This document shows, in pieces, positions 7,832-36,785 of a stretch of DNA of 64,000 bases. The translations under genes and the position numbers were made by a program. Origin of the DNA: Schlesneria sp. Its GTDB lineage: Bacteria; Planctomycetota; Planctomycetia; Planctomycetales; Planctomycetaceae. The notes below the pieces were generated by a model. It was given only the letters and a program-made list of their open reading frames with translations. It searched no databases and was not told the origin of the DNA. Position 1 is the stretch's first letter. Each line of letters starts with the position of its first letter. Where the stretch lies: the NCBI GenBank assembly GCA_028291515.1, contig JAQGHU010000114.1, positions 186,001 through 250,000 of the forward strand, given 5' to 3'.

Positions 7832-8782
7832 ATGAAAACGATTCTCGTCACCGGCGGTGCCGGTTTCCTAGGCAGTCACCTATGCCAACGCTTGCTGGAA
7901 AGGGGAGACTCTGTCATCTGCCTCGATAGTTTCTTCACAGGCAGAAAGCAAAACGTCGCACATCTGATCGGGAATCCACGTTTTGAATTACTGCGTCATG
8001 ACATCGTCGAACCGATCGTGATCGAGGCGGATCAGATCTACAATCTTGCCTGCCCCGCTTCGCCGGTTGCGTATCAATACAACCCGATCAAGACAATCAA
8101 GACTTCAACCGTCGGTGTTGTCAACATGTTGGGATTAGCGAGACGGTGCAAGGCACGAATTCTCCACTGTTCGACGTCGGAAGTTTACGGAGATCCCGAC
8201 GTTCACCCGCAGACAGAAGACTACTGGGGTCGGGTGAATCCCATAGGCCCACGAAGCTGCTACGATGAAGGTAAACGGGTGGCCGAATCTCTTTGCATGA
8301 ATTACCACCAGGAACACGGGATTGAAGTTCGAATCATTCGCATCTTTAACACCTATGGGCCGCGCATGGACCCCAATGATGGACGCGTGATTTCCAATTT
8401 CATCACGCAGGCTTTGCGCGGCGAGCACCTGACAATTTATGGCGACGGCAAGCAAACGCGATCGTTCTGTTATTGTGACGATCTCATTCGCGGAATGATG
8501 CTGTTGATGGATCAAGATCAGGAAACGGGACCGGTGAATATCGGCAATCCTGGCGAATACACAATGCTCGAGTTGGCGAGTGAGATCCTTAAAGCTATTC
8601 CTCACACCGAATCCACGATCAGTTATATGCCTCTACCTAAAGACGATCCGAAGCAGCGCTGCCCGGACATCTCAAAGGCGAAACAATTGCTCGGATGGGA
8701 ACCGACGATTGATTTGCCCACCGGTTTGGAAAGAACCATCAAGTACTACCGACAAGAATTGGGAATGAATGAAAATGCTTAA
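7832..8782 (+). CDS. UDP-glucuronate decarboxylase (UDP-xylose synthase)
   Basis: An extended short-chain dehydrogenase that decarboxylates UDP-glucuronate to UDP-xylose through a keto intermediate. Seen: NAD-binding GGAGFLG (8-14), the UXS-specific stretch [19 protein letters not shown], then TSEVYGDP, and YDEGK with catalytic Tyr144 and Lys148. Later [10 protein letters not shown] and [10 protein letters not shown] match bacterial UXS rather than epimerases. Start ATG 7832 gives the normal N-terminus MKTILVTGG; a TTG six codons upstream is possible. It follows ugd and overlaps the next gene by 14 bases, so it is probably in one operon. Confidence 0.93.
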
Positions 8783-9761
8783 CGTTGTCGAAAGCATGAA
8801 TGAAGGCAATCTCGATATCTGCTGTCCGACTCCCGTCGACGGAATCGACGCTCCACGAATCGCATGGACTGAAATTGCCGTCCAATGGAGCGTCATTGTG
8901 CGCACGTACAATGAGGCACGACACCTGCCGGACCTTCTTTCGATGCTGAAACGGCAAGAAATCCCCGAAGAGAAACTGGAAATCATCGTGGTCGATTCCG
9001 GCTCGACCGACGACACTGTCCGCATCGCCGAGGAAGCCGGTTGTCGAGTCGTCCACATCCCCAAAGCGGATTTTTCATTCGGTCGTTCGCTGAATCTAGG
9101 CTGCGAGGCGGCGACTGGTGAATACTTGGTATTTATCAGCGGCCATTGCGTTCCGGTGCATCGGAACTGGCTTACCGATCTGACGGCTGCCATGATTCAT
9201 GACGGTGCCAGTCTCACTTATGGGCGTCAGATTGGTGGCCCTGAAACAAAGTTCAGTGAGCATCAATTATTCGAGAAATACTTTCCCGCCGAGAACCACG
9301 AAGCGCCGCATCCGTATTTCTGCAACAACGCGAACGCGGCGATTTTGAAGTCGGCCTGGCAGAGGTTTCGCTATGACGAAGACCTACCTGGCCTGGAAGA
9401 CATGGAAATTGGTCAGCGTTTGGTGCGCGCTCGACTGAAGATTTGCTATGCGCCTGAGGCCGTCGTCTATCACTATCATTTCGAAAACTGGGCGCAAGTC
9501 AAACGCCGCTACGAGCGCGAAGCGATCGCGCTGCAGAGGATACTTCCAACGGTTCACGTTTCCGCTTTGGATGCCCTTCGCTACTGGTTCGCCGGAGTAC
9601 TGGGAGATTGGGCCAAAGCGATCCTGCAGCGGAGTTTCTTACGGAAAGCAGTGGAGATTGTCACATTCCGGGCCTGCCAGTTCTGGGGGACATGGCGAGG
9701 AAGTAATAGCCATAAGCAACTGACGCGACAAATGAAAGATCGATATTACTATCCAATCTAA
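8769..9761 (+). CDS. Family 2 glycosyltransferase
   Basis: A GT-A fold transferase of 330 residues. Seen: [18 protein letters not shown] (about 38-55), the nucleotide-binding VDSGSTDDT, and [20 protein letters not shown] leading to the sugar-nucleotide region. [12 protein letters not shown] motif near residue 217 corresponds to the ED of the catalytic-base region. The first 30 residues precede the domain and have no match, so later in-frame ATGs (8775, 8805) are possible. The start overlaps the UDP-xylose synthase stop, indicating coupling. The donor is unknown; UDP-glucuronate or UDP-xylose made next door are candidates. Confidence 0.88.
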
Positions 9762-9875
9762 ATATGTGTATAGCTCGCAGGAGATATTTGATCGCAGCGA
9801 TGGTGACGGAGGAATCGTTTGCATTCAGCCAAAGCGGTGGCGACCAGTGCCGAACAGGCGTTGAGGCGATCTCAA

Positions 9876-10550
9876 ATGATAGTGACGATTGACGGACCGG
9901 CGGGCACCGGCAAAAGCTCTGTTGCGAAGACGTTGGCAGAGCGCCTCGGCTTCGAATTTCTAAATACCGGGGCGATGTATCGCGCGGTCGCGTACGCTTG
10001 CCTCGATAAACGGATTGATGTTGACGACCGCCGCGCAGCTGCAGAAACAATGGCCAATCTCGAGATCAGATTTGCGAACAATCGTTTGTTGCTTGCTGGA
10101 GACGACGTCACGGACCAGTTACATCGACGAGACGTAACTTCGGTGGTTTCGTTCGTCCCTCAAAATCCCGAAGTGCGGAGTCGGCTTGTGGGGCTTCAGC
10201 GCGGCGTTGGTAGAAGGGTAAACCTCGTTACGGAAGGAAGGGACCAAGGCACAATTGTGTTCCCTGACGCCGAATTCAAGTTCTTTTTGACGGCAACAAA
10301 AGAGGAGCGAGCTCGGCGTCGTCAACGTCAGCTGCACGACCTGGGGAACATGGTCTCTATTTGGGACCTCATCGACCAACAAGAGGTTCGAGACCGTCGC
10401 CACGAGGCTCGGGCTTGCGCGCCCTTGCGGCCTGCACAGGATGCGCAGATCATCGATACCACCGAGATGAGCCTTTCCGCGGTAGTAGATCTGCTTGATG
10501 AACAAGTAGCGGCCGGTCGGCGCGAGTTCGGTGCTTGCCAATATCATTGA
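9876..10550 (+). CDS. cmk: Cytidylate kinase
   Basis: Phosphorylates CMP/dCMP to the diphosphate with ATP. Seen: P-loop GPAGTGKSSVAKTLAERLG, TGAMYRAVAY, EGRDQGTIVFPDAEFKFFLTA, and the C-terminal EVRDRRHEARACAPLRPAQ, AQIIDTTEMS. These match the conserved CMP-kinase blocks with small changes (EGRDQ for EGRDI). ATG 9876 gives the standard N-terminus MIVTIDGPAGTGK. A TTG at 9819 has an excellent GGAGGA five bases upstream and would add 19 residues. It lies between a glycosyltransferase and a CMP-sugar synthetase instead of its usual rpsA neighbourhood. This suggests recycling of the CMP freed by CMP-sugar transferases (inference). Confidence 0.9.
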   Translation: MIVTIDGPAGTGKSSVAKTLAERLGFEFLNTGAMYRAVAYACLDKRIDVDDRRAAAETMANLEIRFANNRLLLAGDDVTDQLHRRDVTSVVSFVPQNPEVRSRLVGLQRGVGRRVNLVTEGRDQGTIVFPDAEFKFFLTATKEERARRRQRQLHDLGNMVSIWDLIDQQEVRDRRHEARACAPLRPAQDAQIIDTTEMSLSAVVDLLDEQVAAGRREFGACQYH

Positions 10551-11007
10551 GTCGGTCTGGCGCCGGCGGAGGATTATCACGTTCATCGTCGATCCCGTCG
10601 AACAGCACTGCTCAAAACCTGAGCACTCGACCTTACTCCAGGTGTAATCCGAACGGATTTGGCCGCAGGTAATCGAAAAAGACAACGAAGCGGAGATTTG
10701 TAGACGAAAGTTGATTTCACGCCTGAACACCTTCACGACCTTCTCGGATAAATGCGCAACATATATATGGATTAATACTTACGGACATTATACGGTTCTG
10801 AATGCAGCTCCGAACACGACCTCGGGAAACACTGAAATGACTGTCAAGGCATGTTTCGGCGCGAGGTTTGCGGAACATGCTGGCAATCAATCGGTTTCGT
10901 TCCGCAGCCGACTCGGCCAGCAATAACCGATATTGAAGAACGGCATCATCTTGGCGTCAGCGAAGGCTGACTTGATCACGACTCCTTCATAGAACAATTG
11001 GACGTCC
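10551..11007. other. Non-coding or decayed stretch before the CMP-sugar synthetase
   Basis: No frame in these 457 bases gives a recognisable protein. The base composition is mixed, with an AT-rich patch near 10755-10795 (ATATATATGG) that could hold a promoter for the cytidylyltransferase gene. A decayed gene is possible, since several other gaps in this locus hold remnants, but no homology can be named. Confidence 0.4.
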
Positions 11008-11697
11008 ATGTCTGGTTTGGTTGCTCTCCTGCCGATGAAGGCTCATAGTGCCCGCGTCTCCGGTAAGAACTTTCGGAGCTTTGCCGGCAAACCGTTGTTT
11101 CGCTGGATCTTGGATGCGCTGCTCGAAGTCGAGGCGGTCCGTCAAATTGTCATCAATACGGACGCGCGTGAGATTCTTGCAAGTCATGGCTTGACCGATT
11201 CGGACCGTGTGCTGATTAGGGATCGCAAGCCTAATATCTGCGGCGACTTTGTCAGCATGAACCTCGTGCTGAAAGATGACATCGAAAACGTGCGGGCCGA
11301 CGCATATCTGATGACACATACCACAAATCCGCTGCTGTCAGCGGTGACGATCCGCACAGCAATTGAGCAGTATCAGGCCGGCCTGCTCGCTGAAAAATTC
11401 GATAGCCTGTTCTCAGTAAATCGCTTTCAAACCCGGTTCTACCGCGCCGATGGATCCCCTGTGAACCACGATCCCCAGAACCTGATTCGCACGCAGGACC
11501 TTGAGCCCTGGTTTGAAGAGAACTCGAACTTGTATCTGTTCAGTCGGACGAGTTTTGAGCGAACCCAGGCGCGGATCGGTGGCAAACCGTTGTTGTTTAC
11601 CACCCCCTCCTGCGAATCGGCGGATATCGACGATCAAGACGGCTGGGATCTCGCAGAACGCTTGGCGCGGACGATACCCGGCATAGACCCTAGGTGA
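11008..11697 (+). CDS. CMP-sugar (acylneuraminate-type) cytidylyltransferase
   Basis: A 229-residue nucleotidyltransferase of the NeuA/KdsB superfamily, which activates acidic sugars as CMP-sugars. The N-terminal signature LLPMKAHSARVSGKNFRSF, AGKPLFRWILDA corresponds to the CTP-binding R..S..V..KN.R...GKPL pattern of NeuA-like enzymes. It is unlike the ARY.S.RLPGK form of KdsB. VINTDAREI and a TSCESADIDDQ-like end (SCESADIDDQDG) follow family order. The substrate, whether sialic, legionaminic or Kdo-like acid or another acid, cannot be fixed. No neuB-type synthase is in the window. The 3' neighbour is a hydroxyacid dehydrogenase, a pairing that may bear on the substrate. Confidence 0.83.
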   Translation: MSGLVALLPMKAHSARVSGKNFRSFAGKPLFRWILDALLEVEAVRQIVINTDAREILASHGLTDSDRVLIRDRKPNICGDFVSMNLVLKDDIENVRADAYLMTHTTNPLLSAVTIRTAIEQYQAGLLAEKFDSLFSVNRFQTRFYRADGSPVNHDPQNLIRTQDLEPWFEENSNLYLFSRTSFERTQARIGGKPLLFTTPSCESADIDDQDGWDLAERLARTIPGIDPR

Positions 11698-11797
11698 GTA
11701 CTCACGAACTTACGCGGAAGGCTGGTTCCGTATGAACCCCGGAACGCAGCCCAAATGATACGACCGATTTCAAGCAGAAATTTCCGAAAGCGATCCA

Positions 11798-12739
11798 ATG
11801 CGTGTTGTGATTACGTGCCCACCGATGATTCGCTCGATTCAGCACTACAGCCATCTACTGACGGATCATGGCATCGAATTTCATTGTCCCGAGTTTACGC
11901 AGATCCTCTCGGAACCCGAGTTGTTGGAACTCATCCCACAGTTCGATGGTTGGATTATCGGCGACGATCCGGCCACTCGGCGCGTTTTCGAGACCGCCGT
12001 TCGCGGAAAGTTGCGAGCTGCGGTAAAGTTCGGAGTTGGAATCGACAATGTGGATTTTGCCGCCGCTCGCGATCTGGGACTCCCAATCACAAATACTCCC
12101 GGGATGTTTGGCCAGGAAGTCGCGGATATCGCGCAATGCTACGTGATCGCCCTGGCGCGGAAGATCTTCGATGTCCATCGCGGCGTGGTCGCCGAGAGGT
12201 GGCCCAAGCCCGTCGGATATTCGCTCGCCGACAAGACGGCCGCTGTCGTTGGATTCGGCGATATCGGGCGTCAGACCGCGAAACGTCTTCTGGCAAGCGG
12301 GATGAAGGTCATCGCGTATGACCCACGTTTCGCTCCCGCACCAGGGTTGGAGGCTGTGGAGTCGGCCGCCTGGCCTGATCGCATCCAAGAAGCCCAGGTG
12401 ATTGTGCTGACGTGTGCGTTGACGCCCGAGAACCGCCATCTCTTGAATGCCTCGACCTTCGCAATGTGCAAGCGCGGTGTCGATATTGTGAACGTATCTC
12501 GCGGTCCGCTGATCGATGAAGCCGCACTGTCACAAGCTCTCGAGTCGGGACAGGTCAGCGCGGCGGCGCTTGAGGTATTTGAAGTGGAACCCTTGTCTGC
12601 GACATCGCCGTTGCGCCAGTTTGAACAGTGCTTATTTGGATCGCATAACGCTTCTAACACCCGAGACGCAGTCATACGGACGAGTGAGCGAGCCATTGGC
12701 CTACTTCTCGAAATGCTGAAAGTGAAGGCACCAACCTGA
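11798..12739 (+). CDS. D-2-hydroxyacid dehydrogenase (phosphoglycerate dehydrogenase-like)
   Basis: NAD-dependent enzyme of the SerA/2-hydroxyacid family, 313 residues, without the C-terminal ACT domain of housekeeping SerA. Seen: VKFGVGIDNVDFAAARDLG, NTPGMFGQEVADI, Rossmann VVGFGDIGRQTAKRLL (about 150-165), catalytic Arg in VNVSRGPLIDE (about 233), acid loop VEPL and His in GSHNAS (about 285). It lies 100 bases after the CMP-sugar synthetase and before the flippase. The likely role is making or modifying the acid that is CMP-activated, but this is inference. Oxidation of a phosphoglycerate-like acid in another pathway remains possible. Confidence 0.85.
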   Translation: MRVVITCPPMIRSIQHYSHLLTDHGIEFHCPEFTQILSEPELLELIPQFDGWIIGDDPATRRVFETAVRGKLRAAVKFGVGIDNVDFAAARDLGLPITNTPGMFGQEVADIAQCYVIALARKIFDVHRGVVAERWPKPVGYSLADKTAAVVGFGDIGRQTAKRLLASGMKVIAYDPRFAPAPGLEAVESAAWPDRIQEAQVIVLTCALTPENRHLLNASTFAMCKRGVDIVNVSRGPLIDEAALSQALESGQVSAAALEVFEVEPLSATSPLRQFEQCLFGSHNASNTRDAVIRTSERAIGLLLEMLKVKAPT

Positions 12740-12850
12740 TCTAGTTGGCTATTTGGCATTGTTGAACGTTCGATCTCACTCCCCTAGCGACACGCCCCGG
12801 CATCGGTCAGACGGGTGATCTTGTCGGCAACCGCGTCAACGAAAGGCGAA

Positions 12851-14368
12851 ATGCATCTGATCGCTGCCAGAATTCGACAAATGTGGAACTCTCCCACGGT
12901 CACGACCTGGATGAGCTTTCTGGCGCGCGCGTTGGGACTACTGCTGATCACTCCGATCATCCTCACTCGCTTCAGTCCCGCGGAGGTTACTGTCTGGTAT
13001 TCGCTGCTGACTCTTATTGGCCTGCAGATGATGGCCGACTTCGGCTTCTCATCAACGTTTGCCCGTGCAATCGCATTCGCGATGGCAGGATTGGAGAATC
13101 TACACGAGATTCGTCAGCCAAATAGGCCGGCACTCACGATCACCGAACCAAACTGGTCGCTGCTTCGCAGAATTCTGAGTACGATGAGCGTGATCTACAC
13201 GCGTTTGAGCCTCAGTACGCTGTTAGTTATGGGGATTGCTGGTACCGCGATGCTGTGGAAGCCGATCAGCGAAATCTCCAACCCGTGGAATGCCTGGGCG
13301 GCATGGGGCGCGGTTCTGTCAACAATCTGTATCACGTTTTGGGGCAACTACTTGGGCGCATACTTGCAGGGCATTGACCAAATTGCGATTCTCAGGCGGG
13401 CGGAAGCGATCTGGACTGTGTCCGGTTTAGTGCTCGCCGCCGCAGTGGCTGCCGGTGGCGGTGGTATTCTGCCGACCATCGCGGTGTATCAAGCCTTTGC
13501 AGTGTTCAACGTCATCTGGAACCTTCGCGTCGCCCGAGGACTCTTTGACGGCCGGTTACGAACTCCTCAGCCAGTGATCGATCGCGAAGTCTTCGCAGCG
13601 GTCTGGCCGCCAGCCTGGCGAAGCGGCGTGGGCGTACTGATGTCAACAGGTGTTTTGCAGGTCACTGGACTCATCTACGCGCAACTTGGCCCCACAGTCG
13701 AAGTCGCGTCGTACCTGCTCGCGATGCGATTCATCACGGCGATCGCGCAGTTTTCCCAAGCACCGTTCTATAGCAAGTTGCCCGGCATGGCTCGAGAATA
13801 CGCCCGCGGCAACTTTGCCGCGGTGATGCAGGTGGCCAATCGCGGCATGCGTCGCTCGTATTTCGTCTACGTCTGTGGCGTGTTGGGTGTCGGTTTGATG
13901 GCTGCACCACTACTGCAATTGGTGCATTCCCGCACTCCCTTTGTCAGCCCCGCCCTGTGGGCAGCGATCGCTCTCGCCTACTTTCTGGAACGGCTGGGAG
14001 CGATGAATATTCAACTTTATAGTCTTAGCAATCATATTGTCTGGCACATCCTCAATGGGATTACAGGAGTGTTATATATCGTTTTGTGTATGGCAACGCT
14101 CGATTCTCTAGGTCTCTGGGCTTTTCCGTTGTCGATGACAATCGCATATTTGGCCTGTTACACGACCTGCTCGTTATACTTCGCGTATGGATTGTTCAAA
14201 TTGCCTCCCCTGCGTCAAGAACTGTCAACCGGGAGCCTCTTGACGGCGATTCTGTTGGTGGCATTCTGTATGATTAGCTCAACCTTCGACGTCTCGAAAC
14301 CTTTGCGTTGGCTCGTTGATCGATATCAGCCTGCCACTCCTGCGACTTCAAAAGTCGCCAAGCTTTGA
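12851..14368 (+). CDS. Wzx-like polysaccharide flippase (PST/MATE superfamily)
   Basis: A very hydrophobic protein of 505 residues with about 12 membrane segments. These begin at LARALGLLLITPIILTRF and continue through TLIGLQMMADFGFSSTFARAI, the pattern of oligosaccharide flippases that move lipid-linked repeat units across the inner membrane. ATG 12851 (AAGG close upstream) gives the N-terminus MHLIAARIRQMWNS; a GTG 12 codons upstream is less likely. It is the only flippase candidate in the locus, so it probably serves the product of all the glycosyltransferases here. No MurJ-specific features were seen. Confidence 0.85.
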   Translation: MHLIAARIRQMWNSPTVTTWMSFLARALGLLLITPIILTRFSPAEVTVWYSLLTLIGLQMMADFGFSSTFARAIAFAMAGLENLHEIRQPNRPALTITEPNWSLLRRILSTMSVIYTRLSLSTLLVMGIAGTAMLWKPISEISNPWNAWAAWGAVLSTICITFWGNYLGAYLQGIDQIAILRRAEAIWTVSGLVLAAAVAAGGGGILPTIAVYQAFAVFNVIWNLRVARGLFDGRLRTPQPVIDREVFAAVWPPAWRSGVGVLMSTGVLQVTGLIYAQLGPTVEVASYLLAMRFITAIAQFSQAPFYSKLPGMAREYARGNFAAVMQVANRGMRRSYFVYVCGVLGVGLMAAPLLQLVHSRTPFVSPALWAAIALAYFLERLGAMNIQLYSLSNHIVWHILNGITGVLYIVLCMATLDSLGLWAFPLSMTIAYLACYTTCSLYFAYGLFKLPPLRQELSTGSLLTAILLVAFCMISSTFDVSKPLRWLVDRYQPATPATSKVAKL

Positions 14369-14510
14369 TCGCCGCTCATTGGCGTGTTCGGCCTGGCCTT
14401 GAAATCCACTATTGGCGCGTGTGCTCCGACATTCAGATAAGGTGCGAGTTTGCTTACTAACTCCACGACTGCAAATAGCGCTCGTCAGCGTCGTACTTGA
14501 GGATTGAGAA

Positions 14511-15773
14511 ATTAAAGTCATTGTCGTCCATGATACAGTAGCCATTGATGGCGGCGCATCAAAAATTGCGATTCTTGCGGCTCGAGGATGTGCTGATGCC
14601 GGTCTCGACGTCCATTATGTTGCCTCGAACGGAACTGTTGCGCCGGAATTGCAAGGCAGTGAGCGACTGAAAGTCACATGCCTCGAGCAATTGGACATCA
14701 AGGAAGATCCAAATCGCATTCGGGCCGCTGTTCAGGGCATTGCCAACACGCGGATGTCGTCCGCTTTGGCCAAGATCATCGATGATGCTGGTCCTGACAC
14801 GGTCGTGCATATTCACTCCTGGAGTAAGTCGCTTTCGCCGTTGTGCGTACGAACCGTCGCGCGCGCGGCCGCTCGCAAGGGCATTCCAGTCGCAATGAGC
14901 CTGCACGAATATTTCACGGCGTGTCCGAACGGCGCATTTTTTGACTTTCCAAAAAACGAAGTATGCCACCGCACCCCGCTCAGTTGGAGTTGCGTGAGTT
15001 GTAACTGCGATTCTCGTTCGTATCGAATCAAGCTATGGCGGCTGGCGAGAGTGTTCGTTCAAAAGCACTTATACGGCGTCCCGGCCTGTATTACGAATTA
15101 CATCATGATGACGAAAATGAGCCGGGACGTGCTGACGCCCTTCTTGCCATTAGACTCGAATATCTACATGCTGGACAACCCGATCTCCGTAACAGACGAG
15201 GGCAGATCGCCGGTCGAATCGAACAAGCGCGCACTCTTTGTCGGCCGACTATCCCGGGAGAAAGGGGTTGCCAACCTGTCGCAAGCGTTGCGCGATCTGG
15301 GAATGTCTGCCGTATTCGTCGGCGATGGACATTTGAGAGCCGAAATACAAGCGCAGCTTCCGGACTCGGAATTCACGGGTTGGCTGAATAAAGAGGGCGT
15401 CAGCGCGAAGATGCGTGAGGCAAGAATACTGGCATTTCCATCAACTTGGTATGAGGTCCAACCGCTAACCCCCATTGAGGCCGCCGCGAACGGAGTCCCT
15501 TCGATTGTATCGAATTGTACGACCGCCATCGAATGCATCGAGCACAACGAACGAGGACTGCACTTCCAGCATGACAGCGTTGAAGCACTCAAACAACAGT
15601 TGATTGCATCGCAAGACGACAAGCTTGTGGAACGCCTCAGTCGGAATGCCTATTCCTGGTATTGGAACAATCCGTGGACAGTCCAGCGCCACACCCGAGA
15701 ACTGATTGCAATATATGAGCAGTTGCAGAGCGGCAAGACGTCCGTAGCTTCTCTTCCACACCCCGTCACTTAG
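14511..15773 (+). CDS. GT-B glycosyltransferase (family 4 type) with an apparent ATT start
   Basis: A GT-B enzyme; the C-terminal domain shows ALFVGRLSREKGVANL, the E-x7-E region FPSTWYEVQPLTPIEAAANGVP and a typical last helix. The conserved N-terminus is KVIVVHDTVAIDGGASKIA. In frame it begins directly at ATT 14511, because GAA and a TGA stop (14505) come just before. GAGG lies about 9 bases upstream. The first in-frame ATG (14649) would remove the whole first beta-alpha unit. ATT is a known rare initiator (infC, pcnB). A base error or frameshift is the alternative. The encoded length from ATT is 420 residues. Confidence 0.82.
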   Translation: MKVIVVHDTVAIDGGASKIAILAARGCADAGLDVHYVASNGTVAPELQGSERLKVTCLEQLDIKEDPNRIRAAVQGIANTRMSSALAKIIDDAGPDTVVHIHSWSKSLSPLCVRTVARAAARKGIPVAMSLHEYFTACPNGAFFDFPKNEVCHRTPLSWSCVSCNCDSRSYRIKLWRLARVFVQKHLYGVPACITNYIMMTKMSRDVLTPFLPLDSNIYMLDNPISVTDEGRSPVESNKRALFVGRLSREKGVANLSQALRDLGMSAVFVGDGHLRAEIQAQLPDSEFTGWLNKEGVSAKMREARILAFPSTWYEVQPLTPIEAAANGVPSIVSNCTTAIECIEHNERGLHFQHDSVEALKQQLIASQDDKLVERLSRNAYSWYWNNPWTVQRHTRELIAIYEQLQSGKTSVASLPHPVT

Positions 15774-15814
15774 GACCCGCACTTAGGTAGAATACGACGC
15801 TACATGACGCACAC

Positions 15815-16075
15815 GTTGCCATCGTATCCGAACCGGGTGCCAAACGGCATGTGAATCGGCTTTCTTCGGCACATAGATCTCACCAACCCTGACGTGATGT
15901 ACTCTAGATCACAGCTCGAACAGATTCGACGTACTCCGCGGAGCTTGACGAGTTGCGAGGTCGTGTTTCGACGACCTCCGAGCTGAGCAGCAGCTTTGGA
16001 AACAAGTTACGACGTTTGAAGTCGGACGCACTGCATCTTTATGGTTTTAGGGCGAACTGACCGGGGCGATTCGCG
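15815..16075 (+). pseudogene. Decayed glycosyltransferase N-terminal fragment
   Basis: Fragments in shifting frames match the start of the intact glycosyltransferase that follows at 16130. VAIVSEPGAKRHVNRL (about 15817) matches its VVISEPG..VKRHVVDL; TYSAELDELRGRV (about 15929) matches its TYQTEITELSTRG; LRRLKSDALHLYGF (about 16008) matches its LRRIRPHLIHSHS. Stops and at least two frameshifts separate the pieces, and nothing of the C-terminal domain is present. It is a broken partial copy of a paralogue, left by duplication or recombination. Confidence 0.65.
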
Positions 16076-16129
16076 ACCTGCCTCATGGACGAATTCCCCC
16101 TGTATTAAGAAAGACTGTGCTGAACACAA

Positions 16130-17296
16130 ATGAACGATCGCCCCCGAATCGTCGTGATCTCAGAACCCGGCTCCGCTGGAGTGAAAAGGCATGTCGTCGA
16201 TTTGCTTCGTTTGATTGACGTCATGAGATTTGAAGTTTACTTCATCTACAGCCTCGAGCGGTCCGACGCGACCTATCAGACTGAAATCACTGAACTGAGC
16301 ACACGAGGAATAACATGTATCGAAATCCCCATGAATGCACCGCTATCCGTTCGGAAAGATACCGCTGCATTGATGACGTTGATTGGTGAACTTCGACGAA
16401 TCAGGCCCCACTTGATTCATTCACATAGCTCGAAGGCCGGTGGCTTGGCGCGGATAGCGTCATTGTGTTTATTCCCGCGCCCCAGGAACGTGTATACGCC
16501 CAACGCCATGGCTTGTCACCGTTCTTCGTTATACTGGGGTATCGAAGTCGTCCTGGGTCTCCTCACAGACCGGCTGGTGGCCGTTTCGCGAACCGAATTC
16601 GCCGATTGGCAGCGTTGGAGAATTCCCGGAGCAAAGCGCGCGGCAATCATTCCCAACGGAATGTCGGTAAGAACCAGCGAGACTGTCGGCCATCGCGAGA
16701 TCCCCCACAATGCAGAATGGACGTTTGGCGCGTGTGGGCGAATCTGTCGCCAAAAGAATTCACTCCTGATGTTCAGAACGGCAGTCGAAATGCTGCGGCG
16801 GGACAGTCAAGCTCGCTTCGTCTGGATCGGCGACTTTGGCGACGATGACGAGGCGCAAAGTGTCCGTACTTTCCTGAGCCAAGAGAAGGAATTTGGAGAT
16901 CGACTGCGCGTCACTGGTTGGGTTTCAGATCCTGAGTCGCTGCTTTTGACTCTTGATGTATTCTGCATGATCTCGCGCTATGAAGGCCTGAGCTATGTAT
17001 TAGGAGAAGCGCAATTGCTTGCACTCCCAGTCCTCGCAGTTGATGCTCCAGGAATTAGTGACCTTGTGGTGCAGGATGTCACAGGAATCGTCGCCCTCCC
17101 GCAAATAGAGTCGTTATGCGACGCCCTGACCGGCCTCCGTGATGACGTAGAATTGCGCAGGCGTTTGGGCGAGAAGGCGCGCCGCGAAATAGCGTTACAC
17201 TACACCGTAGCCGGAATGGTTGCGGCAGTCGAAGATGTTTACGAGCAGCTTACGCCGCAGCGGTCGAGCACAACACTTGATGCAACTACGGTATAA
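16130..17296 (+). CDS. Family 4 glycosyltransferase
   Basis: A GT-B enzyme of 388 residues. The N-terminal acceptor domain has RIVVISEPGSAGVKRHVVDL, LIHSHSSKAGGLARI and VYTPNAMAC, close to the EpsD/Cps19-like pattern of polysaccharide transferases. The C-terminal donor domain has FGACGRICRQKNSLLMF, RVTGWVSDPESLL and a catalytic E-x7-E region in SRYEGLSYVLGEAQLLALPVLA. The start ATG 16130 is preceded by a decayed copy of its own first part. The gene probably adds one sugar of the repeat unit at the inner face of the membrane. Donor unknown. Confidence 0.9.
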   Translation: MNDRPRIVVISEPGSAGVKRHVVDLLRLIDVMRFEVYFIYSLERSDATYQTEITELSTRGITCIEIPMNAPLSVRKDTAALMTLIGELRRIRPHLIHSHSSKAGGLARIASLCLFPRPRNVYTPNAMACHRSSLYWGIEVVLGLLTDRLVAVSRTEFADWQRWRIPGAKRAAIIPNGMSVRTSETVGHREIPHNAEWTFGACGRICRQKNSLLMFRTAVEMLRRDSQARFVWIGDFGDDDEAQSVRTFLSQEKEFGDRLRVTGWVSDPESLLLTLDVFCMISRYEGLSYVLGEAQLLALPVLAVDAPGISDLVVQDVTGIVALPQIESLCDALTGLRDDVELRRRLGEKARREIALHYTVAGMVAAVEDVYEQLTPQRSSTTLDATTV

Positions 17297-17311
17297 GGGA
17301 GACTTTCGAAG

Positions 17312-17850
17312 ATCAGGTCACTCGCCCTTCTGGGAACGTCGCATTTGATCGCGGCAATCTCTCTTGATGAAACGGCCGTCGACCTTCACTCCTTCCACTA
17401 AAGATCAGCGGAATGAACATTTCAGCACGCCGAAGCCGCCGCAAAGATATGGAACCAGTGTCCAAAAATTGATGCCGGTGACTTGGATTGCTTCTGGCTG
17501 CCATCGATTCAGGCCCAGCTCTCGCAATCGAACTGTTCATGCCGCGCCGAGTCCTGCATCGTTTGCTCTCGCCCGACATCAGTCCGGTTTGCCTACAAAC
17601 TGTGCAACGCTCGTCGCGACAAAGCGCAGCGACAACGAATTGTTGAACACAGTTTACGTCCTACTCTACCTGAGGATTTCCAGAAGGCCACTTTCACAGA
17701 GATTGCGGCTACACCAAAAAGCCTCTCGGCAACTACGTCGAACTTTCTTAGCCGCAAAATACCTCGCGGCACGTCGAACCCAATGCCTTCGGCGCTACGC
17801 TGCTCCAGTTGGGTATTGGGACTTTGTCGCAGAATTTGGCTCACGGTTTG
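17312..17850 (+). pseudogene. Probable decayed gene, SGNH-hydrolase-like ends
   Basis: The 672 bases between two intact genes have no full open frame. In one frame near 17314, KIRSLALLGTSHLIAA resembles the LGTSH N-terminus of SGNH-like proteins seen in polysaccharide loci. Near 17785-17845 the frame reads HVEPNAFGATLLQLGIGTL, which resembles the H-x-N/P C-terminal region of such proteins. Stops and shifts lie between. The identification is weak. What is firm is that the stretch holds no intact gene. Confidence 0.35.
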
Positions 17851-17852
17851 CT
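17837..17852 (+). promoter_or_regulatory. Sigma-54-like promoter before the GT42/DUF115-like gene
   Basis: TGGCTC, five bases, then TTGC followed by T, with GG and GC exactly 10 bases apart. Only one of the ten core bases departs from consensus (TGGCTC for TGGCAC). It is about 117 bases before ATG 17969 and faces it. It could also arise by chance in the decayed gene it lies in. Confidence 0.42.
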
Positions 17853-17968
17853 TTTGAAGTCGTTTGGCAACCTAAATGCTTCGCTCCAAGAACGAGCATT
17901 CCGTATCTGCAAACCCAAGAGTCATCACTCACGATCGATCCTGCTTTCAGCCATAGGTTTTAACCAAT

Positions 17969-18715
17969 ATGAACGCAACGCGGCCGCACACTGCGCTCGT
18001 CTTGGGGAACGGTCCATCGATCGATCAACTGGATCCGGCATGGCTGGAGCGCGTGTACTCATTCGGAAGCAATCATATCTACAAAAAATTTGACACCTGG
18101 GGGCGTACAACCGATGCCGTGGTCATTACCGATTCGAATCGCATTCAAGAGATTGGCACCGCATACAAACACTATCCGGGGCAGCTGTTTGTAGGGAGTG
18201 AAAAGTGCATTATCCCTAACTATGCATCGCTTCGGCGTGTTCTCGGACGTGACTTCGTGGCACTCAAGCAACTGTCCAAGCCAATGGTTTCGAGATACAG
18301 CTTTTTCAAGTGGTTTACCTACGGTGAGCGCCTGCAACAGGTAGTCTTCGACAAAACAAGATATCCGTTGTCCTATGAACACGGCTTGAATTTTGGCAAC
18401 AGCGTGATCACGTCCGCCATACAAATTGCTGCGATTGAAGGCTTTCGACGCATTTTGCTGACGGGAGTCGATGCCAACTATCCCACGCCAAAGTCGTATT
18501 TCGCAGGCGCTGACACATCTATCAATTTTGTAAATCATACCTTTATAGACAATCCGCGGCTGTGGATGGAGCCAATTCTCGTTGGGCTGCAGATCGCTCT
18601 CGAGCCTGCCGGAATCGAGCTAATCGATTGCACACCCGGCGGAAAACTTCGCTTCATTACTAAAGGAACATTCGCCGACTGTCTTCCTCCAGTTGAGAAC
18701 TCGCATGCGGTTTGA
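17969..18715 (+). CDS. GT42/DUF115-like putative CMP-sugar transferase
   Basis: A soluble protein of 248 residues. It begins ALVLGNGPSIDQLD (about 9-22) and has SFGSNHIYKKF, DAVVITDSNRIQEI and, near residue 147, GLNFGNSVITSAIQIAAIEG followed by RILLTGVDANY. This order (LV.GNGPS, N.IY, G..AI.IA...G...I.L.G.D) is shared by Campylobacter-type sialyltransferases (GT42) and the DUF115/MptE-like family of flagellin-glycosylation proteins. With a CMP-sugar synthetase and CMP kinase in the same locus, a CMP-sugar transferase is the favoured reading. The MptE-like alternative cannot be excluded. It overlaps the polymerase gene by 11 bases. Confidence 0.6.
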   Translation: MNATRPHTALVLGNGPSIDQLDPAWLERVYSFGSNHIYKKFDTWGRTTDAVVITDSNRIQEIGTAYKHYPGQLFVGSEKCIIPNYASLRRVLGRDFVALKQLSKPMVSRYSFFKWFTYGERLQQVVFDKTRYPLSYEHGLNFGNSVITSAIQIAAIEGFRRILLTGVDANYPTPKSYFAGADTSINFVNHTFIDNPRLWMEPILVGLQIALEPAGIELIDCTPGGKLRFITKGTFADCLPPVENSHAV

Positions 18716-20006
18716 TCCTTTCGTCTTGGGGGCTATTGTGCCGAGTGATAACGCACTCGTCATAGCAGCACTAGCGTTGTTCATTGGCACTTTTCTATAT
18801 TTACTCTCAATGCAAATGGCGGTGTCGCCGCAAGGCGTGTCGCTAATTGTCTTCATCGCGTCATCCGTGTTTGTCTTATGGCCAATACTCCTCCATTCGA
18901 GCAACCGGGATTATGTTCTCTCAGGTCCGTGTCAGTGGTTGGTACTCGGCATTGCTGTAACATGGGCGATTGCGATTATCGGATTTATGACAAAGCCCTC
19001 CGAGGAAGTTGAATACCCAGAATTGCGGACACGATTCATCCCGCAACAAATGTGGCTTTCGCTTCTCACCGTCGTCTGCACGATCGACCCAATCGTGACC
19101 GTCGCCAAATTCGGGAAAATCGGCCTGATGTATTCTAATGAAATGGTGGGAAACGGAGGGGGATACGGGGATGTCTGGTCAATCACTACCACACTCGGAG
19201 TCGTATGTGGAATGGTCGCATCGGCGATGCTCCAAGCCGATTTCTTGGTCAGTCGACTGGATTGGCGTCAGTTTCTTTTTGGTCGCAAAAAATGGCTTGA
19301 TCTTGGGTTGGTTACTTGGTGCTTATGTTGCAATTCAGCCACGGGCAATCGCTTTGTCATCGTGATGAACGTCGTTGCTCTTGCCAGCGGGTTGGCGATC
19401 TTCAATCGATTGCAAGTAAAAATGGCGCTGTTGGGCCTGGTTGCTCTGACGGCGTTTTTCATTGCTATCGGAAACTACCGGTTCGGACGGCTCGAAATCA
19501 AGAATCTGCTGTCGTTTGAGACAAATATCAAGGTTGTTGATTCGGGACTTGGTTGGATCGCATCGTACTCCGAACCAATTTTTCCCACACTAGACACATA
19601 TCTTGCAAATGCCCCTCCGCCAGCCTTGGGTGGATTTTGGCTAAATGCAGTTGCGCCTACGGCATTGCGGGGCATTATTACGGGAAAGGACCGTACTACG
19701 GCGATGGATGAGATGAGTCAGCTCTTACCACATTTCGGCATGACGTTTAGGACGATGTACGCGGAGCTTGCTTTCGATTTTGGACTAGTTGGATCATTAC
19801 TCGTCGGCACCGTTGTATTACTGCTAAGCATTTGGTTGTACAATAATGCTACCGCCTCGCCATTCCTGCTGTCCATTTATATTGCTACTTTCCATATGTT
19901 CGGCTTCATGGCTTTGCTGGCTAACTTTTATACACAAATCCCATTTATGGCAGTTGCGCTTTTATGGATTGTCGTCGCCCCCTCTGACCTGGAAAGCGAG
20001 CCTTAG
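18705..20006 (+). CDS. Wzy-like O-antigen/polysaccharide polymerase
   Basis: A membrane protein of about 433 residues with 10 or more hydrophobic segments and one longer loop (about residues 275-345, TTAMDEMSQLLPHFGMTFR). This is the layout of oligosaccharide-repeat-unit polymerases, which join repeat units at the outer face of the inner membrane. Start ATG 18705 lies inside the end of the preceding gene; TTG 18693 is also in frame. Sequence conservation in Wzy proteins is low, so the call rests on topology and neighbours. A second O-antigen-ligase-type protein is coded at 24443, so the division of labour between them is open. Confidence 0.75.
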   Translation: MRFDPFVLGAIVPSDNALVIAALALFIGTFLYLLSMQMAVSPQGVSLIVFIASSVFVLWPILLHSSNRDYVLSGPCQWLVLGIAVTWAIAIIGFMTKPSEEVEYPELRTRFIPQQMWLSLLTVVCTIDPIVTVAKFGKIGLMYSNEMVGNGGGYGDVWSITTTLGVVCGMVASAMLQADFLVSRLDWRQFLFGRKKWLDLGLVTWCLCCNSATGNRFVIVMNVVALASGLAIFNRLQVKMALLGLVALTAFFIAIGNYRFGRLEIKNLLSFETNIKVVDSGLGWIASYSEPIFPTLDTYLANAPPPALGGFWLNAVAPTALRGIITGKDRTTAMDEMSQLLPHFGMTFRTMYAELAFDFGLVGSLLVGTVVLLLSIWLYNNATASPFLLSIYIATFHMFGFMALLANFYTQIPFMAVALLWIVVAPSDLESEP

Positions 20007-29815: not shown

Positions 29816-31132
29816 TTGGTCGATCCGAAAAACAAATCCGGAGCGATACTCTACATGCTGTACGACGTAGCAGTCCTAACCATGTCGACAATCTATTATT
29901 GGCACTCAGCACTTTACCGACACAGTGGCCAAAGGCGTTTAGCGTGGTTCAAAATGCGAAAGCGCAATATTCTGCCGCCGCTCCCAGTTGACCGACGCCC
30001 CTTAATTTGGATTCACGCGGTGTCTGCCGGCGAAGTTAAAGTTGCCGAGAAGCTAGCTGAGGCGTTACGGCGTCTATTGTTACGGGCGACAATCGTTATA
30101 TCTTCTTCGACTGAAGCTGGGTATGCAAAAGCACAAAATGTCATCGAGGCCGATGTCGCGATTGTAATGCCGCTCGATCTTCGCAAGCCACTCCAACAGA
30201 TCTTCCAACATCTTCAGCCAAGTGTGTTGATAACTGTTGAGTCGGAATTGTGGCCGCACCTTTTTCGGATCGCAGAACAAATGTCAGTCCCAATCAACGT
30301 AACAAATGCGACGCTATCGGATCGATCCTTCAAGAACTTCAAGAAACATGGATGGTTCGCGAAGGCGACACTCTCAAAAGTGAGTCATTTCTATTGCCAG
30401 AACATGAGCACAATGTCGCGACTAAATGAACTCGGGGTCGCGGATAACAAGATCGATATCACAGGCAACATGAAATTGTCGCCTCCGTCTCGCCAAGCTA
30501 TTGCTCACGCTCAAGCATTGGTGCCCGCCTGTGACAGGCGCGAGACTAAGACCATTACATTTGGCAACATTCATCCGGCGGAGATCAAAGACACGAGAGA
30601 TCTAATTTGTAGACTACATTCCGTCACCGATACGAGAGTTCTCATCGTCCCGAGGCATATCGATAAATTTACTCCAAAAGACATAAAAACAACGTTCGGT
30701 GACGACGTTAAAGTAGTGTCTGACATTTCCGAGATATCGCCTTCTGATCGATTGGTGTGGGTTAGTGCCATGCATATACTGGAGGCTATATACGCAGCAA
30801 CTGATATAGCAGTAGTAATGGGGACATTTTGCGACGTAGGTGGTCACGATCTTGTCGAGCCTGTGCATTTTGGCGCGCTCACTTTTTACGGGCCTAACGT
30901 CGAAAAGCAAATGTCGCTACACGCGGAGATGTCGGCACTTATGCCTTGGGCGCAAGTCCGTGACTACAATGCCTTATACGAATCACTTGTTGAGATGCTT
31001 GAGGTGGAGTACCTTTGGAATACGCGAGTGAATGAACTGCACAGCGCACTTGCTCAATTTGCGTCGATCACAAATGACGTAGCGTGTGCAATTGTCGAAC
31101 GAAACCAATTGAAAGACCAGAACGCGTCCTGA
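29816..31132 (+). CDS. waaA: WaaA/KdtA-type 3-deoxy-D-manno-octulosonic acid transferase
   Basis: GT30 family enzyme that moves Kdo from CMP-Kdo to lipid A precursors or a glycan. Seen: N-terminal membrane anchor region (MLYDVAVLTMSTIYYW), WIHAVSAGEVKVAEKLAEAL with the family's catalytic Glu, VESELWPHLFRIA, NATLSDRSFKNFKKHG, and GGHDLVEPVHFGALTFYGPN, which is conserved at the C-terminus (GGHN.LEPA..G). Start TTG 29816 has AGAGGA six bases upstream; ATG 29855 is the alternative. By eye the gene is AT-richer than the neighbouring housekeeping genes, and it borders a mobile-element scar, so transfer is possible. It fits a CMP-acid-sugar module. Confidence 0.9.
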   Translation: MVDPKNKSGAILYMLYDVAVLTMSTIYYWHSALYRHSGQRRLAWFKMRKRNILPPLPVDRRPLIWIHAVSAGEVKVAEKLAEALRRLLLRATIVISSSTEAGYAKAQNVIEADVAIVMPLDLRKPLQQIFQHLQPSVLITVESELWPHLFRIAEQMSVPINVTNATLSDRSFKNFKKHGWFAKATLSKVSHFYCQNMSTMSRLNELGVADNKIDITGNMKLSPPSRQAIAHAQALVPACDRRETKTITFGNIHPAEIKDTRDLICRLHSVTDTRVLIVPRHIDKFTPKDIKTTFGDDVKVVSDISEISPSDRLVWVSAMHILEAIYAATDIAVVMGTFCDVGGHDLVEPVHFGALTFYGPNVEKQMSLHAEMSALMPWAQVRDYNALYESLVEMLEVEYLWNTRVNELHSALAQFASITNDVACAIVERNQLKDQNAS

Positions 31133-31635: not shown

Positions 31636-33714
31636 ATGAAGATAGCCCACTTCTTTATCGAACGCCCGATTTTCGCAGCCGTTATCTCATTCGTGATCAC
31701 GATCTTCGGAGCTATCTCGTATGTGTCGCTGCCCGCTGCTCAATACCCGGACATTGTGCCACCGACAATCGTTGTGCGCGCGTTCTATCCAGGCGCTTCT
31801 CCCGAAGTCATCGCCGACACGGTCGCGACACCAATTAAACAGGAAGTGAACGGCGTCGAAGAGATGCTGTACATGTCGTCACAGTGCACGGTCGACGGCC
31901 AGATGGAACTGACTGTCACTTTCAAGCTGGGTACGGACCTCGATAATGCTCAGGTGCTGGTTCAGAATCGCGTCGCGACAGCAGAACCACGGCTTCCTGA
32001 AGAAGTGCGTCGGCAGGGGATCACGACCACCAAATCCAGCCCGGACATTCTGATGGTGATCCACCTGGTGTCGCCTGACAAGCGGTACGACCAGCTTTAC
32101 TTGAGCAACTATGCGTTGATTCAAGTGCGCGACGAGTTGTCTCGAGTTGAGGGCGTCGGGAGCATCAATACGCCCGGCCTTCGCGAATACAGCATGCGAG
32201 TCTGGCTGGATTCCGAGCGACTGTCGCATTTATCGCTGACTCCGGCCGATGTCGTCGCAGCGATTCAAACTCAAAACCTGCAAGTGGCGTCGGGCGTCAT
32301 CGGCCAGCCTCCACAGTCGACAAAAGGAGACTTTCAGTTGACGGTCAAAACTCTGGGCCGGCTGATGGAACCGCAGCAGTTCGAGCAGATGATCGTGCGA
32401 ACAGGTGAAGATGGTCGAGTGATACGAGTCAGCGATGTTGCTCGGATCGAACTGGGAGCTCGCGACTACACGATCAATAGCTATGTCGATGGCGAGACCG
32501 GTATCGGCATGGCGATCACACAGCGTCCCGGTGCGAATGCTCTTGCGACAGCTGCAGCTTTGCAGCAGACGATTGATCGTCTCGCGAAGAACTTTCCCGA
32601 AGGGCTGACATACCGCGTAGCGTACAACCCGACCGTGTTCGTGCGCGAGTCGATCGATTCGGTGATTCATACGTTGTACGAAGCCGCAATCCTGGTAGTG
32701 ATCGTGGTGCTCGTATTCCTGCAGAACTGGCGAGCGACGCTGATTCCGCTGATTGCGATCCCCGTCTCGTTGGTGGGGACGTTCGCTGCGATGCTCGCAC
32801 TGGGGTTTTCGCTCAACATGCTGTCGCTGTTCGGGCTGGTGCTCGCGATCGGGATCGTCGTTGATGATGCGATCGTCGTCGTGGAAAATGTCGAACCGCA
32901 TATCGGTCAACTGAAGACACGGAACGTAGCTGGCGAGATGATTCCACTCGGCTCGGTCGTCGACGTTCGCTGGGAGACCGGTCCCGATCGCGTCGTTCGA
33001 TACAACATGTATCCATCGGCAGAGGTGCAGGGGGATACAGCACCGGGCTACAGTTCCGGTCAGGCGATTGAGACCATCGAACGATTGGCGAAAGGAGTGC
33101 TTCCGCAAGGGATGTCGATCGAATGGACTGATATCACTTTCCAGGAACGCCTCGCGGGAAACACAGCTCTCTACATTTTTCCACTGTGCGTGCTATTCGT
33201 CTTCCTGGTGCATGCGGCCGAGTATGAAAGCTGGTCGCTGCCAATGGCTATCATTTTGATCGCCCCGATCTGTCTGCCGTTTGCTCTGGGAGGCGTCTGG
33301 CTGCGTGGCATGGATAACAACCTGATCACTCAAATCAGCTTCATCGTGCTGATTGGACTCGCTGCAAAAAATGCCGTGTTGATTGTCGAGTTCGCGAAGC
33401 AGCAGGAGGAAGAGGGCCACGGAACGATTCAGGCTGCGATCGAAGCCTGCCGCTTGCGCTTGAGACCGATCATCATGACGTCGTTCGCGTTCATCCTGGG
33501 GGTGATTCCACTGGCCCGTGCAGTCGGACCTGGCTTCGAAATGCGGCAGGTGCTGGGGACGGCTGTGTTTAGCGGAATGCTGGGAGTGACACTCTTCGGA
33601 CTGTTCCTGACTCCTGCCTTCTACATATTGCTAAGAGGAGCTTCGAAGTGGTTCTGGGGTGCAGAAAAAAAGACAAACGTCTACCAGAACCAAAGTTCAT
33701 CAAGCGTCCATTGA
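31636..33714 (+). CDS. RND efflux permease (HAE1/AcrB family) with large internal deletion
   Basis: Begins like AcrB/MexB: FFIERPIFAAVISFVITIFG, PAAQYPDIVPPTIVV, FYPGASPEVIADTVATPI. TM2-TM4 with VVDDAIVVVENV follow up to about residue 418. The frame then jumps directly into LKTRNVAGEMIPLGSVVDV, which belongs to the second periplasmic loop, and ends normally with TM8-TM12 (GLAAKNAVLIVEFAKQ). The total is 692 residues against about 1030-1060 for the family, so roughly 350 residues (TM5-TM7 and most of the second porter loop) are gone. The frame is intact. There is no adjacent membrane-fusion protein. Probably a non-functional deletion product. Start ATG 31636 has AGAGG upstream. Confidence 0.85.
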   Translation: MKIAHFFIERPIFAAVISFVITIFGAISYVSLPAAQYPDIVPPTIVVRAFYPGASPEVIADTVATPIKQEVNGVEEMLYMSSQCTVDGQMELTVTFKLGTDLDNAQVLVQNRVATAEPRLPEEVRRQGITTTKSSPDILMVIHLVSPDKRYDQLYLSNYALIQVRDELSRVEGVGSINTPGLREYSMRVWLDSERLSHLSLTPADVVAAIQTQNLQVASGVIGQPPQSTKGDFQLTVKTLGRLMEPQQFEQMIVRTGEDGRVIRVSDVARIELGARDYTINSYVDGETGIGMAITQRPGANALATAAALQQTIDRLAKNFPEGLTYRVAYNPTVFVRESIDSVIHTLYEAAILVVIVVLVFLQNWRATLIPLIAIPVSLVGTFAAMLALGFSLNMLSLFGLVLAIGIVVDDAIVVVENVEPHIGQLKTRNVAGEMIPLGSVVDVRWETGPDRVVRYNMYPSAEVQGDTAPGYSSGQAIETIERLAKGVLPQGMSIEWTDITFQERLAGNTALYIFPLCVLFVFLVHAAEYESWSLPMAIILIAPICLPFALGGVWLRGMDNNLITQISFIVLIGLAAKNAVLIVEFAKQQEEEGHGTIQAAIEACRLRLRPIIMTSFAFILGVIPLARAVGPGFEMRQVLGTAVFSGMLGVTLFGLFLTPAFYILLRGASKWFWGAEKKTNVYQNQSSSSVH

Positions 33715-36720: not shown

Positions 36721-36785
36721 GACAAGATTCTCCATGAGGAGCCATCTCGCCCAGAGGGATGAATGGCACAGTGTGCCATTCATCC

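Follow-up and report, generated by a model that had tools for sequence, protein, structure and literature searches.

What acid does the cytidylyltransferase in the exopolysaccharide locus of Schlesneria sp. activate, and how might the cell come by it? Bacterial sugars activated with cytidine monophosphate (CMP) are mainly sialic-type acids and Kdo, both of which are formed by condensing synthases dependent on phosphoenolpyruvate (PEP). The stretch of DNA analysed here, hereafter the window, comprises 64,000 nucleotides of an 8.59 Mb genome (G000:C79:186001-250000). It encodes a NeuA-like cytidylyltransferase (CT) beside a D-2-hydroxyacid dehydrogenase (HADH), and a sequence-only reading had grouped these two with a cytidylate kinase and a GT42/DUF115-like protein as a four-gene set within 9 kb, with a WaaA-type transferase farther on and no NeuB- or KdsA-type synthase. 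All four genes are present at 9.8–18.7 kb by profile or fold, and neither synthase occurs among the main open reading frames (ORFs) scanned in the window. We find that CT and HADH form a genuine functional module. That the pair lies at the heart of a module which provides a CMP-ulosonic acid for a surface polysaccharide, working without a NeuB- or KdsA-type synthase, is a reading we favour tentatively, with confidence a little short of probable.

CT and HADH belong together because their phyletic distribution is identical among the 170 genomes of the same family that were compared, and because their adjacency is conserved across phyla. Within the family, CT occurs at ≥69% identity in 4/170 genomes and HADH at ≥55% identity in the same four, adjacent to CT, all other HADH matches being at most 40% identical. 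A cross-phylum scan of species genomes supplied the best-matching 80 loci, which are related to one another; after removal of two duplicates, and with the window included, 82 loci were compared, of which 59 are flanked by 3 kb or more on either side (full flanks). The CT relatives in the cross-phylum loci are 64–76% identical, and the loci derive from Verrucomicrobiota, Planctomycetota, Pseudomonadota, Cyanobacteriota, Nitrospirota, Thermodesulfobacteriota, Myxococcota and Bdellovibrionota. Of the 59 full-flank loci, 50 carry HADH, and the pair also occurs on three RefSeq-annotated roseobacter-group plasmids. In a within-contig control, in which matches lying ≤5 kb from CT were set against those farther out on the same contigs, HADH matched 65 times within 5 kb and 0 times beyond; the corresponding counts were 64/1 for GT2, 47/4 for SDR, 31/0 for the UlaG-like MBL protein, 11/0 for the HpaI aldolase, 10/2 for SMP-30 and 56/16 for DUF115. 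Co-occurrence in relatives, on which the sequence-only reading had depended, thus holds for CT and HADH. CT is rare (1 of 392 sampled genomes of the phylum), which, with its 4/170 occurrence in the family, fits horizontal spread; phage records gave no match to it. No description of the pair or of a corresponding pathway was found in the open-access literature. The module is conserved and apparently undescribed, its kind being known in general (CMP activation plus Maf/GT42-type transfer) and the source of its acid apparently unusual.

The kinase, in contrast, drops out of the conserved set. Among the CT loci compared, the window and one relative of the same genus (L090) are the only ones in which it neighbours CT, and it is ruled out as a module member on that ground. 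Recycling of CMP by this enzyme, as had been suggested, is plausible locally, but it is therefore a local addition at most. The genome has another copy of cytidylate kinase on C93, and the window kinase probably starts at an internal ATG at 9876.

The fold of CT points towards enzymes that activate ulosonic acids. Its model (mean pLDDT 90.9) has as its top PDB match a CMP-Kdn synthetase, 9t4z, at Z 24.7 and with an rmsd of 2.5 across 219 residues; CMP-sialate synthetases score from Z 23.9 (1eyr) down to 21.7, the CDP-alcohol enzymes TarI and IspD 18.6–19.1, and CMP-Kdo synthetase 18.3. CT shares with NeuA, 9t4z and PseF the whole-chain fold and the terminal DID motif, which is retained, at ~20–24% identity. 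It differs from them in subfamily motifs of its own (LPMKAxSxR...KNF, THTTNP, EENSNLY), in having no NeuB-type synthase as a partner, and in scoring far under the cut-off of its best NCBIfam profile, PseF TIGR03584 (71.6 vs 205.7 bits).

Nor is CT the Kdo enzyme of this genome, because a standard KdsA (C97; TIGR01362, 361.7 vs 314) and a standard KdsB (C4; TIGR00466, 211 vs 155) are present separately; CT itself gives no match to the KdsB profile. This disposes of the possibility, raised by the sequence-only reading, that CT is the only KdsB of the genome. A genome-wide search for NeuB returned no PF03102 match (controls found in 9/14), nor did a NeuB turn up among the conserved partners of CT. 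With no NeuB, and with KdsA and KdsB accounted for elsewhere, the known pathways do not call for CT. The module would resemble the KdsA/KdsB/WaaA pathway in the CMP activation of a 2-ulosonic acid and its transfer onto a surface glycan; it differs in that the genome has its own KdsA and KdsB, in the poorer fit of the CT model to KdsB, and in having no PEP-dependent synthase. A third PF02348 match in the genome (C5) appears GlmU-like by sequence and was set aside. Phosphonate activation was also considered as a role for CT: PntC enzymes are LicC-type and associated with PEP mutase (PMC6697681), which was not encountered among the conserved partners, the genome itself not having been searched for it. 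At 30% identity, CT homologues occur in Escherichia and Enterobacter plasmid capsule loci (L097, L099) with an inositol-monophosphatase-like gene and a NeuB-family synthase; the wider superfamily therefore also serves conventional pathways.

HADH is a member of the D-2-hydroxyacid dehydrogenase superfamily by its PF02826 match (159 bits) and its catalytic Arg-Glu-His triad (R235, E264, H283), conserved in ≥95% of aligned rows; the NAD position carries an acidic residue, the NAD-type D175. Phosphoglycerate dehydrogenase (PGDH), the best profile, and hydroxypyruvate reductase are closest. HADH is of the same family as SerA (PGDH) and PdxB, but it has no counterpart to the long C-terminal portion of the 525-residue PGDH profile, falls far under the cut-offs of both (178 vs 454 bits for SerA TIGR01327) and is tightly paired with CT. 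SerA and PdxB run in the oxidative NAD+ direction and set a precedent for biosynthetic C2 oxidation of a sugar-acid phosphate.

The conserved neighbourhood is larger than first noted, adding GT2, SDR, lactonase-like, Wzx and DUF115 genes to the pair. Among the full-flank loci, GT2 is found in 48/59, SDR and DUF115-type genes in 39/59 each, a lactonase-like gene in 34/59 (UlaG-like MBL 24, SMP-30 10), a Wzx-like gene in 15/59 and the HpaI aldolase in 7/59; amino-sugar genes do not stand out among the conserved partners. The SDR counts glucose 1-dehydrogenase and aldose dehydrogenase among its top three NCBIfam profiles, both below cut-off. MBL is distantly related to L-ascorbate-6-phosphate lactonase, and SMP-30 has a gluconolactonase-type fold. 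MBL and SMP-30 occur together in 0/59 loci (p 0.004), as expected for two enzymes with one job. In L081 (8297-9961) and six other loci MBL is fused to the GT2 preceding CT; the two are therefore functionally linked.

A second exclusion concerns HADH itself. HpaI is present in 11 of the 82 loci, and HADH in none of those 11. The HpaI-bearing CTs form one cluster, a single Verrucomicrobia clade, inside the HADH-bearing family on the CT tree, and a single replacement event therefore accounts for them. Because no CT position differs consistently between the HpaI and HADH groups (66 positions are ≥97% conserved in both), a comparison of sequences suggests that the CTs of both groups share one substrate. 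By profile matches, relatives of this HpaI make or cleave 2-keto-3-deoxy acids. HpcH/HpaI aldolases also accept hydroxypyruvate with small, glyceraldehyde-like hydroxyaldehydes to give dihydroxy-2-oxo acids (PMC7610986), and because of this a common, non-deoxy 2-ulosonic acid could be the product of either route. In L016, near 10001, two adjacent CT-type genes, one strongly diverged, follow the HpaI aldolase. The analysis establishes what the genes are, how their products fold, that they are linked and co-occur among genomes, and that HADH and HpaI exclude each other in these loci.

In the window, the module lies in a polysaccharide locus spanning 1.8–31 kb. This opens with Wzz/BY-kinase, an initiating sugar-phosphate transferase, UDP-glucose dehydrogenase, an epimerase/dehydratase and GT2, ahead of the kinase/CT/HADH stretch; its later part holds two GT4 genes, a probable Wzy, GT4, an acyltransferase, Wzy_C, an epimerase, a UDPGP-family enzyme and a WaaA-type protein. 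The genes that concern us are as follows.

8769..9761, + strand: GT2-family glycosyltransferase, a partner that as a rule immediately precedes CT (PF00535)
9819..10550, + strand: second cytidylate kinase (TIGR00017, 217 bits vs cut-off 135.6)
11008..11697, + strand: CT, NeuA-like cytidylyltransferase of a distinct subfamily (PF02348, 58 bits)
11798..12739, + strand: HADH, D-2-hydroxyacid dehydrogenase (PF02826, 159 bits)
12815..14368, + strand: Wzx-like O-unit flippase (NF041503, 160 bits vs cut-off 300)
14649..15773, + strand: GT4 glycosyltransferase (PF00534)
16130..17296, + strand: GT4 glycosyltransferase (PF00534/PF13439)
17969..18715, + strand: candidate transferase for the CMP-sugar acid, a DUF115 protein of Maf/GT42 fold (PF01973 sub-threshold, 29.6 vs 34.6; model fold)
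18693..20006, + strand: membrane protein, probable Wzy-type polymerase (no Pfam match; family common to L011, L012 and L090)
29816..31132, + strand: WaaA-type Kdo transferase, N-terminal domain (PF04413, 154 bits)

The GT42/DUF115-like call for the gene at 17969 is borne out at the level of fold. Compared with its model (pLDDT 83), Maf 5mu5 gives Z 14.2, with an rmsd of 4.0 across 189 residues, and the sialyltransferases CstI and CstII of GT42 give Z 11.9–12.7; a methanogen pterin kinase scores below both at Z 11.1. It misses the PF01973 gathering score, whereas a relative in the other DUF115 group passes it at 47.4. The protein has in common with Maf/DUF115 and GT42 enzymes the fold, the GNGPS motif and a conserved N35, and the known enzymes use CMP-ulosonic acids; Maf transfers nonulosonic acids and Kdo (PMC11339370). 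It differs in being small and single-domain, in its Wzx/Wzy locus, in its weak Pfam score and in that the putative catalytic His is not conserved. On the strength of the modelled fold it is a candidate CMP-sugar-acid transferase. The WaaA-type protein, present as had been described, probably serves the lipid A core and lies outside the CT module, because standard KdsA and KdsB sit elsewhere in the genome.

How, then, might the acid be made? In the fuller loci, an SDR would oxidise an aldose at C1 to a lactone, which a lactonase (UlaG-like MBL or SMP-30) would open to an aldonic acid. HADH, acting in the oxidative NAD+ direction by analogy with SerA and PdxB, would turn the C2 hydroxyl into a keto group to yield a 2-ulosonic acid, and CT would couple the anomeric hydroxyl of this acid to CMP, pulling an unfavourable oxidation forward. 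The DUF115 (Maf/GT42-fold) transferase would move the acid onto the growing repeat unit for export by Wzx/Wzy. In place of HADH, an HpaI-type aldolase would supply the keto acid in one clade of Verrucomicrobia. In the window genome only the HADH–CT–transferase end is linked, and the aldonate would come from unlinked enzymes. So described, aldose to lactone to aldonate to 2-ulosonate by SDR, lactonase and HADH would be a third general route to CMP-ulosonic acids, dispensing with any PEP- or pyruvate-condensing synthase, using a distinct CT subfamily with DUF115 transferases and reaching at least seven phyla; this wider claim we consider possible, with doubt prevailing.

Several points weigh against the proposed pathway. 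Firstly, the window has no linked SDR or lactonase. Nothing in its genome matches the MBL protein, the best SDRs there and in the same-genus relative are only 27–36% identical, and 11 SMP-30 paralogues make the assignment of a lactonase in this genome impossible; the upstream steps, if any, are therefore unlinked there. Secondly, MBL, SMP-30 and SDR are promiscuous folds, and D-2-hydroxyacid dehydrogenases usually favour reduction. Thirdly, the HADH/HpaI exclusion has a Fisher p of 1e-7 that overstates independence, the tree showing a single switch. An Acuticoccus CT (44% identical) sits in the row HpaI–CT–HADH–HAD hydrolase, and the two enzymes are therefore not strict alternatives everywhere. 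Finally, a His that is conserved in other DUF115 rows, and is putatively catalytic, is missing at the aligned column in the window and is not conserved in its subgroup; at a nearby position the window and L011 share an H, where L012 has T and L090 has Q. All substrates, the direction of HADH and the role of the transferase are candidate assignments that we infer.

Of the other explanations, the best placed takes HADH to be reductive and CT to activate a D-2-hydroxy acid of the glyceric type, as the sequence-only reading had allowed, so that the outcome would be a CMP-hydroxyacid decoration rather than a ketosidic sugar. The nearest profiles of HADH, phosphoglycerate dehydrogenase and hydroxypyruvate reductase, and an equilibrium toward the hydroxy acid speak for this. 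We nevertheless think it unlikely: CT is better matched by CMP-Kdn/NeuA structures, which act on anomeric hydroxyls, than by TarI/IspD (Z 24.7 vs 18.6–19.1), HpaI, a maker of 2-keto acids, takes the place of HADH next to the same CT, and the SDR and lactonase set is left unexplained. A glyceric-type acid is not favoured because the CT fold is of CMP-Kdn/NeuA type and HpaI can stand in for HADH, both of which fit a 2-ulosonic acid better.

Alternatively, HADH may produce hydroxypyruvate (or its phosphate) from glycerate and pass it to an unlinked aldolase that builds the ulosonic acid, which CT then activates. The Acuticoccus row, the acceptance of hydroxypyruvate by HpcH/HpaI aldolases (PMC7610986) and four PF03328 proteins elsewhere in the window genome are consistent with such a supply. 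Yet none of the 50 full-flank HADH loci has a CT-linked HpaI-type aldolase, and HADH is lost where HpaI appears in the Verrucomicrobia; we hold this explanation to be quite unlikely. An ordinary CMP-nonulosonate or CMP-Kdo pathway with an unlinked synthase would suit the NeuA/PseF-like character of CT and the normal use of nonulosonates by Maf-type transferases, but it is improbable in a genome with no NeuB and a separate, standard KdsB, with a CT far under the PseF cut-off and no NeuB among the conserved partners, whereas the 30%-identical plasmid homologues adjoin NeuB. That an acid other than standard sialic acid or Kdo is involved remains the best inference. Polysaccharide loci shuffle genes freely, and the linked genes might serve separate sugars of the repeat unit, their pairing carrying no pathway meaning, but the identical CT/HADH distribution (4/170) and fixed adjacency across phyla make this very improbable.

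A few features of the surrounding DNA may be recorded. Homology of the GT4 at 14649 runs upstream of its first ATG/GTG/TTG (window 14369-14700; 37% to an L090 ORF), and its real start is therefore probably non-standard or its 5' end altered. The ORF at 17364-17963 (199 codons) has no family match and no relative outside the window, and is probably not a gene. A six-frame search found no decayed SDR or lactonase in the gaps 10551-11007, 15774-16129 and 17297-17968. Farther on, an RND efflux transporter (31636-33714, 692 aa) matches the 1021-position ACR_tran profile in two separate places, a central stretch apparently being missing, and a large serine recombinase lies on the minus strand (34774-36783), directly past the polysaccharide locus.

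Short 2-ulosonic acids do occur in bacterial capsules: a 4-deoxy-2-hexulosonic acid is a constituent of the K3 antigen of E. coli (reference 32 in PMC10433991, as cited there), a likeness for which we claim no gene link. The CT and HADH genes are now annotated as acylneuraminate cytidylyltransferase and phosphoglycerate dehydrogenase, and sialic acid is thereby wrongly implied. If the CMP-ulosonic-acid reading is true, the module would point to an unrecognised class of acidic sugar in the exopolysaccharides of cyanobacteria, nitrospirae, planctomycetes, verrucomicrobia, roseobacters and others.

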